From: Alphaproteobacteria bacterium
Lineage (GTDB): Bacteria > Pseudomonadota > Alphaproteobacteria > Ferrovibrionales > Ferrovibrionaceae
Reading direction: 5' to 3'
Assembly (NCBI GenBank): GCA_017307375.1
Contig: JAFKFH010000024.1
Span: 1-64,000 of the forward strand
DNA: 64,000 nucleotides
This document shows positions 58,916 through 64,000 of this stretch, piece by piece. The notes below the pieces were generated by a model. It did no database searches, was not told the DNA's origin, and saw only the letters and a program-made list of their open reading frames with translations. The position numbers were made by a program, and so were the translations under genes. Position 1 is the stretch's first letter, and each line of letters begins with the position of its first letter.

Positions 58916-60114
58916 TCGACGCGGCGGCCGGCCTCGTTCCGCTGGCCCTGCTGTTTGCCACTGCGCTGGCGCTGTCGCGCGCCGCGGTGGCGGTCGACGG
59001 CGCGCCGCTTCTGCTCGGCCATGTTTCGCGCCTTGCGGGTGACAGCCCGCGCCGGCTTTTGCTTGGCCTGCTCGCGCTGACCGCGGCGATCTCGGCGCTG
59101 CTGCCGAACGCGGTCACCGTGCTGGTCATGCTGCCGCTGCTACCCCGGTTCGTCGCCCGCTTCGACGTTCCCCCGGATCATGAACGGTTGTTTGCCACTG
59201 CCGCGGCAGCAGCCGTGATGTGGGCCGCCAATATCGGCGGCATGGCCACGATCATCGGCTCGGCGGCCAATGCCATCCTGGTCGTCTACCTGCGCGCAAC
59301 CGCCGTACCGGGGGTCGAGCGCCTGAACTTTGCCACCTGGGCGGCGTGGGGCATCCCGCTGTCGATCACCCTGACGCTCGCGGCCTGGGGCATGCTGTGC
59401 CTGGGGTTCCGCCGGACCCTGCAGGCGGCCCGCCCCCTGCCCCAGCCCGGGCAGCCGGCAGCAACCCCGGCTCAGCGGCGCCTGGTCGGGCTGACCGTCG
59501 CCTATCTCGCCTTCTGGACCGGCTTGTCGGTCGCCGATACCACCTTCGGCGACAGCGAACGGATCGGGCTTGCCGGCGCGGCGCTGGCCTTCTCAGCGTG
59601 GTTCCTGTGGCGATTGCGCCCGCTGGGGCTGACCCTGGCGGGCAGCATGGCTGCGCTCCCCTGGCGCGGCGGCGTACTGATCGTCGCGGCGATCGTGCTG
59701 TCCTACGGCCTGATCGCCGGCCTCGACCTCGACGGCCGTGTCGGCGCCCTTGCCGCCGCCGCCGACCATCTCGCCTGGCCGCCGCTGATAATCCTGAGCC
59801 TCGTGATCCTTGCCGTCGTGCTGGCGACCGAGGTGATGTCGAACAGCGTCGTCGCGCTCACCGTGTTTCCGCTGGTCGCGGCCGCGGCGCCGGCCCTTGG
59901 CACCAGCCCGCTGGTCGGGCTGATCCTGGTCAGCCTGGCCTCGACCGCGCCCTACATGACCGCGCTGGGCGCACCGTCGAACGCGTTGCTGGTCGGCGAA
60001 GCCGGGCGGCTCGACCTGATCAGGCTGGCGCTGCTCGGTTTCCTCATGAACGTGGTGTCGGCGCTGATGCTGGCGGCCTGGGGACTGTGGATCATGCCCA
60101 AGATCCTCGGATGA
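58912..60114 (+). CDS. SLC13/DASS-like anion transporter
   Basis: A 400-residue membrane protein of the ion-transporter superfamily (ArsB/NhaD/SLC13 fold) with about ten to eleven spans. Two similar halves each carry an SNT/ANA-type hairpin: LLPNAVTVLVMLPLLPRFVA with AANIGGMATIIGSAANAILV, and VLATEVMSNSVVALTVFPLV with MTALGAPSNALLVGEAGRLD. This suggests Na+- or H+-coupled carriage of sulfate, dicarboxylates or similar anions. The best start is TTG 58912 overlapping the rnd stop as TTGA; no better ATG exists near the N-terminus. Confidence 0.78.
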   Translation: MIDAAAGLVPLALLFATALALSRAAVAVDGAPLLLGHVSRLAGDSPRRLLLGLLALTAAISALLPNAVTVLVMLPLLPRFVARFDVPPDHERLFATAAAAAVMWAANIGGMATIIGSAANAILVVYLRATAVPGVERLNFATWAAWGIPLSITLTLAAWGMLCLGFRRTLQAARPLPQPGQPAATPAQRRLVGLTVAYLAFWTGLSVADTTFGDSERIGLAGAALAFSAWFLWRLRPLGLTLAGSMAALPWRGGVLIVAAIVLSYGLIAGLDLDGRVGALAAAADHLAWPPLIILSLVILAVVLATEVMSNSVVALTVFPLVAAAAPALGTSPLVGLILVSLASTAPYMTALGAPSNALLVGEAGRLDLIRLALLGFLMNVVSALMLAAWGLWIMPKILG

Positions 60115-60170
60115 TATCATCTGACGAAACGGCTTTTGCCTGTTGACCAGGTGCTACCGGCCGGTAGAGT
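60115..60170 (+). promoter_or_regulatory. Promoter and conserved 33-bp element before the thioesterase gene
   Basis: Positions 60115-60147 match 61600-61632 at 27 of 33 bases with no gaps. The shared core is TCATCTGA(C/T)GAAACG, then TTTTGCC, then TTGAC. TTGACC (60143-60148) with TAGAGT (60165-60170) and a 16-bp spacer forms a fair promoter. The element begins at the end of the transporter gene, next to a 10-bp palindrome ATGATATCAT (60111-60120). A shared regulator for the thioesterase and the acyl-CoA synthetase is inferred. Confidence 0.65.
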
Positions 60171-60200
60171 GGCAGCCCGAACCGATCAAGCCGAGGTCCA

Positions 60201-61463
60201 ATGACGTCAGAAAACTCGACCGCCCTCGTCACCGTCGCGCTGCGGCCGGCCCAACTCGATCTCGGCGGTGCCCTCGGCGCCGAGGCCACGGTCGGCCTGA
60301 TGACCGACGCGCTGCACGCAGCCCTGGCTCGCACCGGGATCGATCGCGCAGCACTTGCCAGGGCATCCGCGCAGATCCGGGTCAGCGGCATCGAGGTCGA
60401 GGCGGGCCCGGCCCGGCCTGGCGAAGGGATGCGGGTCAGCGTGCACGCCGATGAAACCCCGACCGGGACGGCCGGCCGCTTGCCCCTGACCGTCGTCGAC
60501 TCTGCCGGCGCCGTCGCGGCGCGCGGCGTGGTCGGATGGGCGCTCAGCACCGCCGTGGAAACGTCCGGTCCGATCGCCCCGCCCGACGACCTGCCACCGC
60601 CTGTCGCGGCGCGCCTGATGAAGGGCGAGCATTGCGACCAGGCCGGTCATGTCAATGTCCAGGTCTTCCTCGACCTTGCCGACGATGGTCTGGCCGGTAT
60701 CGCCGAAGCCCTGAAGCTTGCCGAGGCTGGCGGCCGCCTGCGGTTCACCGCGGCACGCGTGCAGTTCAAGTCGGAGTTGTTCGCCGGCGACAGCGTCTCG
60801 GTTCGCTCGTTCGTGCGCGGCACCAGCCCCGACGGGCTGCTGGTCACCCATGCCATCACCCGCGTGCCTGGCGGGCCGGCAGCCTGCGTCGTCGAGACCA
60901 CGGCGGCGCCGGTCGGTGCCGATGGCCGCGCCCTGGCGCTGCCCGCCGCCTGGATCGCCGCCGCCGAGGGCGCGGTGGCCGACTGGTCCGGCGCTGCCCC
61001 GCCCAAGCCGCTGGGCGAGCCAGGGGTGCCCGCCGCCCCGCCCGCCAATGCCGTCGAGACCTGCCGCGAAACCATCGATACCTGGGATGTCGACGGCGAC
61101 GGCCTGCTATCCTCCCGGGCCATGATCCGCTGGTTCTCGACCGGCGCGCGCCAGTATCTCGGCACCATCGGGCTCGACGGCGCGCGCTTTGCCCGCGACC
61201 AGATCACGGTCGCCGCCGTCGACTATGCGATCACGGTGCCGGCGCGCCCGCCCCTGGGCGCCAATATCGTGCTGCGTTCCGCCCCGCTGGATATCGGCGC
61301 CAAGTCGATGCGCTTCTTTCATCACATGGCCGATGCCGATACCGGCGAGATCTATGCGACAGTACTGATCACCGGCGTCATGCTCGACCTCAAGATCCGG
61401 CGCTCGATGGAAGTGCCGGCCGACGTGCGGGAGCGTCTGAAGGCGCTGCTCGAATCGATATAA
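60201..61463 (+). CDS. Tandem hotdog-fold acyl-CoA thioesterase-like protein
   Basis: A 420-residue protein with at least two hotdog domains. The second-third of the chain (about 150-260) has the 4HBT motif EHCDQAGHVNVQVFLDLADD. A similar domain (about 295-420) has DTWDVDGDGLLSSRAMIRWF, where DQAGHVN is replaced by DVDGDGL. The N-terminal 150 residues may hold a third, degenerate copy. Such proteins release free acids from acyl-CoA or bind acyl thioesters. The adjacent acyl-CoA synthetase and the shared 33-bp element suggest paired control. A terminator follows. Substrate unknown. Confidence 0.75.
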   Translation: MTSENSTALVTVALRPAQLDLGGALGAEATVGLMTDALHAALARTGIDRAALARASAQIRVSGIEVEAGPARPGEGMRVSVHADETPTGTAGRLPLTVVDSAGAVAARGVVGWALSTAVETSGPIAPPDDLPPPVAARLMKGEHCDQAGHVNVQVFLDLADDGLAGIAEALKLAEAGGRLRFTAARVQFKSELFAGDSVSVRSFVRGTSPDGLLVTHAITRVPGGPAACVVETTAAPVGADGRALALPAAWIAAAEGAVADWSGAAPPKPLGEPGVPAAPPANAVETCRETIDTWDVDGDGLLSSRAMIRWFSTGARQYLGTIGLDGARFARDQITVAAVDYAITVPARPPLGANIVLRSAPLDIGAKSMRFFHHMADADTGEIYATVLITGVMLDLKIRRSMEVPADVRERLKALLESI

Positions 61464-61488
61464 GATAATATTCTTAGGTGCGCTGCAG

Positions 61489-61523
61489 CAGGCCTCGCCC
61501 TCGGGCGAGGCCTGATTCTTTTG
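61489..61523 (+). terminator. Intrinsic terminator after the thioesterase gene
   Basis: A perfect 12-bp stem CAGGCCTCGCCC / GGGCGAGGCCTG (61489-61500 and 61503-61514) is followed by ATTCTTTTG. It lies 26 nt after the thioesterase stop and separates it from the acyl-CoA synthetase unit. It is the only textbook Rho-independent terminator I found in the window. Confidence 0.85.
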
Positions 61524-61599
61524 TAGCAAGTCATTCCTAACGCTCGACGGGACGCATCGATAACGCGACGCCCGGCGCTGACGACCGCCTTAACAGTTG

Positions 61600-61633
61600 T
61601 GTCATCTGATGAAACGAGTTTTGCCAATTGACA
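61600..61633 (+). promoter_or_regulatory. Conserved 33-bp element before the acyl-CoA synthetase
   Basis: This is the second copy of the element at 60115-60147. It contains the odd palindrome TCATC-T-GATGA (61602-61612), GAAACG, TTTTGCC and a consensus -35 TTGACA (61628-61633). No strong -10 follows at 16-18 bp, so activation may be needed. It lies about 50 nt upstream of a small leader ORF. Confidence 0.65.
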
Positions 61634-61684
61634 CGCGCGGCGCGGCCATGCCAGTTTCGCCCCAACAAGGACCGGAGGAACGCC

Positions 61685-61759
61685 ATGGCTTGCCCGATGC
61701 TTCGCATCACGACGCCGTCCGTCTGTCGCGGACATGCGAAGACCCGGGGCTGCCGCTGA
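61685..61759 (+). CDS. 24-codon leader ORF overlapping the acyl-CoA synthetase start
   Basis: GGAGG (61674-61678) lies 6 nt before ATG 61685, the best ribosome site in the neighbourhood, yet that ATG is not in the frame of the synthetase. It opens a 24-codon frame beginning MACPMLRITTPSV and ending RGCR, with three cysteines and several arginines. Its TGA overlaps the synthetase ATG as TGATG (61757-61761). The synthetase has no ribosome site of its own, so the leader likely brings ribosomes by coupling. It could be a regulatory leader peptide or merely a loading device. Whether the peptide is made is not known. Confidence 0.55.
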   Translation: MACPMLRITTPSVCRGHAKTRGCR

Positions 61760-63390
61760 TGTCGGGCCTGTTCCGGACTTCCGACCCCCGCATTGCCGAT
61801 ACCGCCGCCTGCGTACTGCGCTACCTGCTCGAGGCGCGCGCCGAGACGACGCCGGATGCGCCCTATGCCGTGTTCGACAGCGGTGAACGCTGGTCCTACG
61901 CCGAGACGCTGCGACAGACCCGCCGCGCCGCCGCCGGTCTGCAGGCCCTGGGCGTGCGCCAGCATGACAAGGTGCTGATCGCCCTGCCCAACGGCACCGA
62001 CGCCTTGCGCGTCTGGTTCGGCGCCAACTATCTCGGTGCCGCGGCCGTGCCGGTAAACCTGGCCTACAAGGGCGGCCTGCTCGAACGCGTGGTGACGAAC
62101 TCGGAAGCGACCGTCCTGGTCACGACCCCGGAATTCGCGGCGCGCCTGGCCGATGTCGACCGCGGCCGGCTCGCCACCGTCGTGGTCTTCGGCGAGGCGC
62201 CATCGGCGATCGACGGCGTGAATTTCATGGCCGCCGCAGCCCTCGACGCCGCCGGCGAGAACCCGTCGCCGCCGCCCGAGCCGATCAAGCCCTTCGACCT
62301 GCAGTGCATCATCTACACGTCGGGCACCACCGGCCCGTCCAAGGGCGTGATGTGCAGCTATCTGCATCTGCACACCGCCGGCCGCGCAGTCTACTTCATG
62401 ACCCCGCAGGACCGCTACATGGTGAACCTGCCCATGTATCACGTGTCGGGCGTGCTGCCCTGCATGATGATGATGGCGCTGGGTGGTTCGGTCGCGATCG
62501 TCGAACGCTTCCGCACCGATGAATTCTGGGCCACTGTCGAACGCACCCAGGCGACCTTCGTCATCCTGCTCGGCGTGATGACGCGCTATCTGCTGTCGCG
62601 GCCGGCATCCGAGCAGGAGCGGCGCTCGACCTTGCGCCACATCATCGTCCAGCCGTTCGATCCGGATGCGCTGCTGCTGAAGGAACGCTTCGGTTTCGAC
62701 GTCTATACCTCGTTCAACATGACCGAGATCTCGCTGCCGATCGTGTCCGGGCCCAATCCGACGGCGGTCGGTGCCTGCGGCAAGGTTCGCGCCGGCGTCG
62801 AGGTCCGCATCGTCGACGACTATGACTGCGAAGTTCCGGTCGGCGAAATCGGTGAACTGATCATTCGGACCGACCAGCCATGGTCGATGAACCACGGCTA
62901 CTATCGCGAACCGGAGGCGACGGCCAAGGCCTGGCGCAACGGCTGGTTCCATACCGGCGACGGCTTCCGCCGCGACGCCGACGGCAACTTTTATTTCGTC
63001 GATCGCCTGAAGGACACCATCCGCCGGCGCGGCGAGAACATCTCCTCCTTCGAGGTCGAGGCCGAGGTCATGGGCCATCCCGCGGTCCGCGAGGCAGCGG
63101 CCGTAGCGGTCAGGAGCGAGATCAGCGAAAGCGAAGTCCTGGTCGTCGTATCGCTGCAGCCCGGCGTCAGCCTCGATCCGGTCGAGATGATCGATTTCCT
63201 GCGCCCGCGGCTGCCCTATTTCATGATCCCGCGCTATATCCGCGTGCTCGACGAATTGCCGAAGACGCCGACCCAGAAGATCGAGAAGCACGTGCTGCGC
63301 AGCGTCGGCCTGGCCGCGGGCGACGTCTGGGACCGCGAAGCGGCGAACGTCACCGTCGCGCGTGACGGCGCCACCGCCCGCCGCGCCTGA
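61759..63390 (+). CDS. AMP-forming acyl-CoA synthetase / CoA ligase
   Basis: A 543-residue member of the ANL adenylating family. Motif A3 is IIYTSGTTGPSKGVM (about 182-196). Later motifs are YTSFNMTEIS (A5), GWFHTGDGFRRDADGNFYFV (A7) and FVDRLKDTIRRRGENISSFE (A8), with the catalytic lysine in PKTPTQKIEKHVL near the end. It activates a carboxylic acid to acyl-AMP and then acyl-CoA. The pattern recalls crotonobetaine/carnitine-CoA ligase-like enzymes (CaiC), but the substrate is unsure. ATG 61759 matches the family start and overlaps the leader ORF as TGATG; the frame is open to 61597. livF follows 8 nt later. Confidence 0.9.
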   Translation: MSGLFRTSDPRIADTAACVLRYLLEARAETTPDAPYAVFDSGERWSYAETLRQTRRAAAGLQALGVRQHDKVLIALPNGTDALRVWFGANYLGAAAVPVNLAYKGGLLERVVTNSEATVLVTTPEFAARLADVDRGRLATVVVFGEAPSAIDGVNFMAAAALDAAGENPSPPPEPIKPFDLQCIIYTSGTTGPSKGVMCSYLHLHTAGRAVYFMTPQDRYMVNLPMYHVSGVLPCMMMMALGGSVAIVERFRTDEFWATVERTQATFVILLGVMTRYLLSRPASEQERRSTLRHIIVQPFDPDALLLKERFGFDVYTSFNMTEISLPIVSGPNPTAVGACGKVRAGVEVRIVDDYDCEVPVGEIGELIIRTDQPWSMNHGYYREPEATAKAWRNGWFHTGDGFRRDADGNFYFVDRLKDTIRRRGENISSFEVEAEVMGHPAVREAAAVAVRSEISESEVLVVVSLQPGVSLDPVEMIDFLRPRLPYFMIPRYIRVLDELPKTPTQKIEKHVLRSVGLAAGDVWDREAANVTVARDGATARRA

Positions 63391-63398
63391 GGCCGACG

Positions 63399-64000
63399 AT
63401 GCTGCAGATCCGCAATGCCCGTATTCTCTATGGCCGCGCCATCGAGGCGGTGCGCGACGTCTCGCTCGACGTCGCGAGAGGCCGCGTCGTCGCGCTGCTC
63501 GGCACCAATGGCGCCGGCAAGTCGACGATCCTGAAGGCCGTCACCGGCCTGCTCGCCTCCGAGGACGGCGAGGTCGTGTCCGGCTCCGTCACCTTCGAGG
63601 GCCAGTCGCTGCTGGGCCAGCGCCCCGACGCCGTGATGCGGCATGGCATCGCGCTGGTGCCGGAAGGACGGCGGCTGTTCACCAAGCTGACCGTGCGCGA
63701 CAACCTGGTCATGGGCGGCTTCATCCGCTCGCGCGGCGATTTCTCGGCCGGGCTCGATTCCGTCATCGCGCTGTTTCCGGCCCTCGCCAACAAGCTTGAC
63801 CGCACCGCCGGTTTCCTCTCGGGCGGCGAGCAGCAGATGGTGGCGATCGGCCGCGCGCTGCTGTCGGGGCCGCGCCTGCTGATGCTCGACGAACCCTCGC
63901 TCGGCCTGGCGCCGCTGATCGTCGAGGAGATCTTTGCCAGCCTGCGCCGCCTGCGCGACGAACGCGGCCTGACGATCCTGGTGATCGAACAGAACGCCCG
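63399..64000 (+). CDS. livF: Branched-chain amino acid type ABC transporter ATPase, LivF-like (3' end cut)
   Basis: The first 200 or so residues of a LivF-type ATPase; the end lies beyond the window. It shows Walker A LGTNGAGKST (about 34-43), Q-loop region VPEGRRLFTKLTVRDNLVMG, signature LSGGEQQMVAIGRAL and Walker B LLMLDEPSLGLAP, followed by VIEQNA with the LivF-type E-Q-N. It starts 8 nt after the CoA ligase, so an import system for an organic acid or amino acid is probably coupled to CoA activation. The rest of the transporter presumably lies downstream. Confidence 0.92.
   Translation, partial: MLQIRNARILYGRAIEAVRDVSLDVARGRVVALLGTNGAGKSTILKAVTGLLASEDGEVVSGSVTFEGQSLLGQRPDAVMRHGIALVPEGRRLFTKLTVRDNLVMGGFIRSRGDFSAGLDSVIALFPALANKLDRTAGFLSGGEQQMVAIGRALLSGPRLLMLDEPSLGLAPLIVEEIFASLRRLRDERGLTILVIEQNA

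Follow-up and report, generated by a model that had tools for sequence, protein, structure and literature searches.

The two copies of a 33-bp element found in the window, the 64,000-nucleotide stretch of DNA analysed here, are probably (about 0.83) operators of a single IclR-family factor, which is encoded at G000:C5:412228-412962 on the minus strand and most likely activates three promoters. The predicted regulon comprises the promoter of a thioesterase gene, that of a run of acyl-CoA synthetase, liv and carboxylase genes, and that of an operon on contig C5, and it would serve to take up an organic acid and degrade it in CoA-dependent steps. Co-regulation of the thioesterase and synthetase genes is well supported at the level of sequence. 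What began as a repeat spotted by eye has led to the proposal of a regulon, in which a specific regulator gene is named, three promoters are predicted and a motif recurs across lineages; a pathway located on two contigs thereby becomes testable as one unit. In addition, two CoA-handling genes would be tied to a wider carbon-use pathway in several other bacteria.

Positions 60115-60147 and 61600-61632 match without gaps at 27 of 33 bases, as stated in the original prediction, and TTGAC is present at the end of both copies. The copies are arranged in tandem on the same strand with a spacing of 1485 bp, and their flanks, which had been described as differing, are indeed unrelated. Downstream of each copy lies an ATG with a purine-rich ribosome-binding site in front of it, and the element-to-ATG gap is 53 bases for copy 1 and 52 bases for copy 2. 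A full self-comparison of the 64-kb window revealed seven direct pairs with at least 27/33 identities, while a reversed-copy control gave none. The match had been considered far above chance, a statement that needs qualification, as seven pairs of equal identity in the window, where a binomial estimate from its composition predicts about 0.56, mean that identity alone is not decisive. The six further pairs are G+C-rich by eye, while the 60115/61600 pair is not. The weight for the element comes from its position, from a third copy beside the regulator gene and from conservation. A chance resemblance of two -35 promoters, for which the seven pairs and the general occurrence of TTGAC in promoters could be cited, can be regarded as refuted, since three copies are found genome-wide versus no control matches and the window pattern outscores shuffled sequences in several other genomes.

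The genes following the two copies are those originally called. The thioesterase gene (60201-61463, plus strand; 420 aa) matches the 4HBT_2 profile (PF13279) and stands alone, and the acyl-CoA synthetase gene (61759-63390, plus strand; PF00501 and PF13193) is the first of a same-strand run that continues with livF, livG, a second AMP ligase, livH, livM, livK and a fused biotin carboxylase/carboxyltransferase. The second gene of this run, a livF-type ABC ATPase (63399-64000, plus strand), runs off the window, and most of the run lies beyond the window end. For the synthetase, 61759 is the preferred start, because the match to its Mesorhizobium relative begins at residue 7 counted from there. 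A terminator-like hairpin with an 11-pair stem and a T-rich tail (61489-61514, plus strand) separates the two target genes, which are therefore likely to be separate transcripts, each needing its own operator. The closest relatives of the thioesterase in 142 other genomes are 31-35% identical, and none of them qualifies as an orthologue. In the window's own genome, two adjacent matches to the 4HBT_2 protein, with 30% and 33% identity, are found at G000:C16:636795-638158. Translation also revealed a leader ORF of 24 aa with a strong ribosome-binding site (61685-61759, plus strand), the TGA of which overlaps the synthetase ATG (TGATG), and short ORFs were seen by eye before the Mesorhizobium and Acuticoccus synthetases as well. 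The leader ORF could serve translational coupling or encode a leader peptide.

In their layout the 33-bp copies agree with the three-box operators of IclR-family regulators, and they are candidate sites of this kind. According to the available text of Suvorova and Gelfand (2021, PMC8222616), such operators consist of GKTYCRY-W3-4-RYGRAMC and a third box, with boxes of alternating direction, and were predicted for 32 orthologous groups. In copy 1, all boxes being given on the plus strand, box 1 ATATCAT (60114-60120) matches the published IclR group-1 box GKTYCRY at 5/7 positions, and box 2 ACGAAAC (60124-60130), which is inverted relative to box 1 across a 3-nt spacer, matches RYGRAMC at 7/7; box 3 CTTTTGC (60133-60139) follows box 2 after 2 nt and agrees with GKTYCRY at 5/7, the best of four offsets. 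Similarly, copy 2 is composed of GTGTCAT (61599-61605, 6/7), ATGAAAC (61609-61615, 7/7) and GTTTTGC (61618-61624, 6/7), with the same 2-nt spacing before box 3. The palindrome TCATC-T-GATGA originally noticed in copy 2 is real and corresponds to the core of boxes 1 and 2. In both window copies 3 nt separate box 3 from TTGAC, and the proposed operator layout would be GKTYCRY, 3 nt, RYGRAMC, 2 nt, a degenerate GKTYCRY-like box, 3 nt and TTGAC. The thioesterase promoter has a -35 hexamer TTGACC (60143-60148, plus strand) paired with a -10 TAGAGT (60165-60170, plus strand), which is the only promoter-like site found in 59900-61900. The -35 hexamer of the synthetase promoter is TTGACA (61628-61633, plus strand), and the scan of the same interval found no consensus -10 for it.

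Boxes 1 and 2 together agree with GKTYCRY-3/4 nt-RYGRAMC at 12/14 positions in copy 1, 13/14 in copy 2 and 14/14 in the C5 copy, and the weakest of the 15 sites scored reaches 8/14. The element thus conforms to the group-1 pattern, although its spacer is not A/T-only, unlike the published W3-4. Outside Mesorhizobium, box 3 lies at the 2-nt offset with a score of 5-6/7 in all 11 sites (best of four offsets), while in the four Mesorhizobium sites its offset varies and its score ranges from 3 to 6 of 7. The third box, the alternating direction and the fixed spacing of the three-box type are all present. The operator type is already known; compared with the operators in the available text of Suvorova and Gelfand (PMC8222616), the box layout is the same, but here the spacer is not A/T-only and box 3 is degenerate. 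The same text reports that the third half-site is required for binding in the case of PcaU, where the extra box is called a direct repeat (PMC8222616). The element would provide a concrete case of a predicted three-box IclR operator at a set distance from the -35 box.

The candidate regulator was located by synteny, through a Mesorhizobium synthetase gene beside an IclR gene, before the third element copy was seen. A scan of species genomes confirmed two relatives of the window synthetase, one of them close, and the closest is that of Mesorhizobium microcysteis with 67% identity. In the same Mesorhizobium gene run, a fused carboxylase (54% identical), an MBL-fold protein and an IclR-family regulator are also encoded. 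A plasmid search found a synthetase relative in 22 records, from which the Acuticoccus one, with 66% identity, was taken for examination. The Mesorhizobium IclR protein has 17 matches in the window's genome, the best of which, C5:412228-412962, lies on a different contig from the window and reaches 286 bits with 56% identity, the next one having 106 bits. This protein belongs to the IclR family by both of its domains, HTH_IclR (PF09339, 47.2 bits versus a cut-off of 22) and IclR_C (PF01614, 110.5 bits versus 24). In a tree of 20 rows, from which 6 of the 16 other IclR loci of the genome are missing as they gave no alignment, it groups as sister to the Mesorhizobium protein (support 98/97), and the pair is nested in a 10-member clade that also includes the proteins from Azospirillum, Tistrella, G302 and Acidiphilium (95/98). 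The best NCBIfam model is TIGR02431 (PcaR/PcaU/PobR) with 127.2 bits versus a cut-off of 284.75, and the BhcR model NF045644 yields 102.5 bits versus 350; being below both cut-offs, the C5 regulator is filed under neither group.

A third copy of the element, at C5:413077, occupies the divergent promoter that iclR shares with an MBL-fold gene. It differs from the two-copy window pattern at 4 of 27 positions; the next unrelated place in the 36 kb around the C5 iclR has 10 mismatches. The genome search proposed in the original prediction thus brought the total to three copies: when up to 3 mismatches are allowed, the three-copy consensus matches these three places and no others in 7,539,962 bases, and the reversed pattern matches nowhere. 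The earlier idea of one shared regulator encoded outside the window is likewise supported, in the form of an IclR protein with an element copy of its own. The exact 22-base core was found in the window's own genome only, out of 143 genomes including it. Eight other places in this genome match a 15-mer at 2 mismatches (two in the reversed control), and they were rejected as additional sites, since by eye the rest of the element is absent from them. Two paralogous modules of the genome, with a synthetase and a fused carboxylase, at C5 206000-225000 and C35 1000-18000, contain no significant element copy; their synthetases are 57% and 53% identical to that of the window. Synthetase loci were fetched at one per genome plus these two paralogues, and of the 29 loci scanned for the promoter one starts at a contig end; at the 28 other loci with upstream sequence the element is absent within 500 bases (best 11 mismatches), the synthetases being at most 57% identical.

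The operon next to the third copy encodes an MBL-fold lactonase-like enzyme, a GlcD-like flavin oxidase, a LeuCD-type hydratase, a PrpB-type lyase and a liv transporter, and Pfam assigned Lactamase_B, FAD_binding_4, Aconitase and PEP_mutase to the four C5 enzymes tested. It is collinear with, and 64-79% identical to, an Azospirillum lipoferum operon that is also divergent from iclR and has the order MBL-fold, flavin oxidase, aconitase-like, LeuD-like, PrpB-like lyase, binding protein, livHM and two ATPases. The location of the third copy on a different contig beside iclR bears on whether a local duplication of a promoter segment could have left the element in both places by descent, with no shared regulator. 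The tandem arrangement of the window copies 1485 bp apart on one strand, and their ATG distances equal within one base, would suit such an event, but the unrelated flanks, the third copy and the similar sites before related operons in other lineages have largely refuted it, leaving it very improbable.

Conservation was assessed in Azospirillum lipoferum, A. ramasamyi, Tistrella (two loci in each of two genomes; an inferred name for genus g40) and G302, where the best match of a 31-base pattern per locus of about 19-25 kb lies upstream of the iclR-tied operon. The site precedes the MBL gene in Azospirillum and the aconitase-like gene in Tistrella locus 1. In Tistrella locus 2 it precedes a transporter-like gene; the aconitase-like gene follows on the same strand 5.4 kb further downstream, and the two are taken as belonging to one operon. 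In G302, sites flank iclR on both sides (L123:7378-8326), one before a gene that is TRAP-type binding protein-like by eye and the other before an aconitase-like gene. A non-circular test used a pattern derived solely from the two window copies and compared it with shuffled sequences at 11 loci. None of 60 shuffles reaches the observed match in C5, L116, L119, L121, L122 and L123, and two and one of 60 do so in L124 and L125, respectively. The pattern gave a null result in three of the 11 loci, namely Mesorhizobium L054 (14/60), Acuticoccus L115 (36/60) and Acidiphilium L117 (53/60), and without TTGAC it remained at 0/60 only at C5 among the 11.

A leave-one-lineage-out matrix ranked the site top in 9/9 loci and above each of 40 shuffles per locus, a result that is not fully independent because the matrix sites were chosen with the window pattern; for the same reason the ungapped register is in part an effect of selection. 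The matrix built from the other lineages picks both window copies with scores of 45.7 and 27.5, the next unrelated place having 7.0. When the TTGAC columns are removed, the site is first in five of nine loci and second in four, and only those five exceed all 25 shuffles. In Mesorhizobium, which is out of sample for the matrix, four sites in two divergent pairs score 20.4-27.2 versus a maximum of 12.2 in 25 shuffles, and they lie before MBL-aconitase-LeuD-lyase genes, a gene thiolase-like by eye, a flavin oxidase and a liv-type run. Once the TTGAC columns are dropped, the top scores there are 13.2 and 13.0, below the shuffle maximum of 14.8. The names of the thiolase-like, TRAP-type and ABC binding-protein genes in Mesorhizobium, G302 and Tistrella were given by eye. 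The Mesorhizobium synthetase promoter contains only a reversed three-box match with 4 mismatches, the next best having 6. Conservation upstream of orthologues, the lack of which had originally been named as a point against the element, is therefore seen, with copies before C5-operon orthologues or iclR-linked genes in Azospirillum, Tistrella, G302 and Mesorhizobium.

Among 385 genomes of the class, the regulator (E <= 1e-45) is present in five and the element in the same five, with none in the control. The pattern was drawn from four of these (the window's own genome, G050, G178 and G302) and the fifth, G275, is congeneric with two of them, hence the overlap is partly by construction and the 380 empty genomes are its informative part. 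The cut-off was 3 mismatches, and the Tistrella locus-1 sites lie beyond it. A search for a further regulator in seven genomes of the family of G302, this one included, added none. The shared distribution, together with half-sites that match the published IclR consensus, argues against the element being bound by a different factor with a regulon overlapping that of the IclR protein. Such a factor could share the divergent promoter in which the C5 copy lies, and in Acidiphilium a regulator homologue (43%) is present at a locus with no significant site, but this explanation appears improbable. The Acuticoccus locus, with its 66%-identical synthetase, also contains no significant site.

What the sequence itself establishes is the sites, their conservation and the regulator synteny; binding, the sign of control, the inducer and the substrate are inferred. 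The C5 protein, when bound just upstream of the -35 box, would most likely recruit RNA polymerase in the presence of a pathway metabolite, and it may control its own gene through the element copy in the divergent promoter of iclR. Three points favour activation. The whole operator is located upstream of the -35 box; copy 2 has no consensus -10, as is expected for an activated promoter; and the nearest models are PcaR/PcaU/PobR and BhcR, of which the last, in the available text on it, activates transcription and has a potential palindrome upstream of -35 (PMC11323563). The same operator might instead serve a repressor, which would obstruct the -35 region until inducer binding releases it, given that the operator abuts the -35 box and that IclR and AllR are described there as repressors of the same family (PMC11323563). 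On the three grounds above, repression is rather unlikely.

The beta-ketoadipate regulators PcaU and PobR belong to the best NCBIfam model of the C5 regulator, yet it scores below the cut-off, and there is no beta-ketoadipate gene among the genes examined. According to the available text, BhcR of Paracoccus denitrificans is an IclR-type activator of the beta-hydroxyaspartate cycle that acts at a divergent promoter (PMC11323563). It shares with the C5 regulator the alphaproteobacterial origin, the IclR type, the divergent promoter and the palindrome upstream of the -35 box, but differs in that the C5 protein falls below the BhcR model cut-off and that BhcR's own target in this text is the beta-hydroxyaspartate cycle. 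A literature search did not find the regulator, the regulon or the pathway in the printed texts covered, which did not extend to supplementary tables such as the list of the 32 groups (PMC8222616).

The gene content tentatively suggests, at somewhat less than even odds, that one IclR-type regulator marks an undescribed alphaproteobacterial catabolic pathway. An imported acid might be converted to its CoA ester, carboxylated by the fused biotin-dependent acyl-CoA carboxylase, released by the thioesterase, and then processed by the lactonase-like enzyme, the GlcD-like flavin oxidase, the LeuCD-type hydratase and the PrpB-type carbon-carbon lyase; the order of these steps is a guess. Such a route might resemble that of dimethylmalate. 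If this reading is true, the shared operator would be a sign that scattered operons form one route.

Finally, a conserved two-box site is present in the two Azospirillum species (L116:14551-14584 and L119:12561-12594), where it separates divergent genes for an alpha/beta hydrolase and an AMP ligase. TTGAC is not in register there, and with the TTGAC columns omitted this site ranks above the main one. It is possibly a further target of the same regulator.
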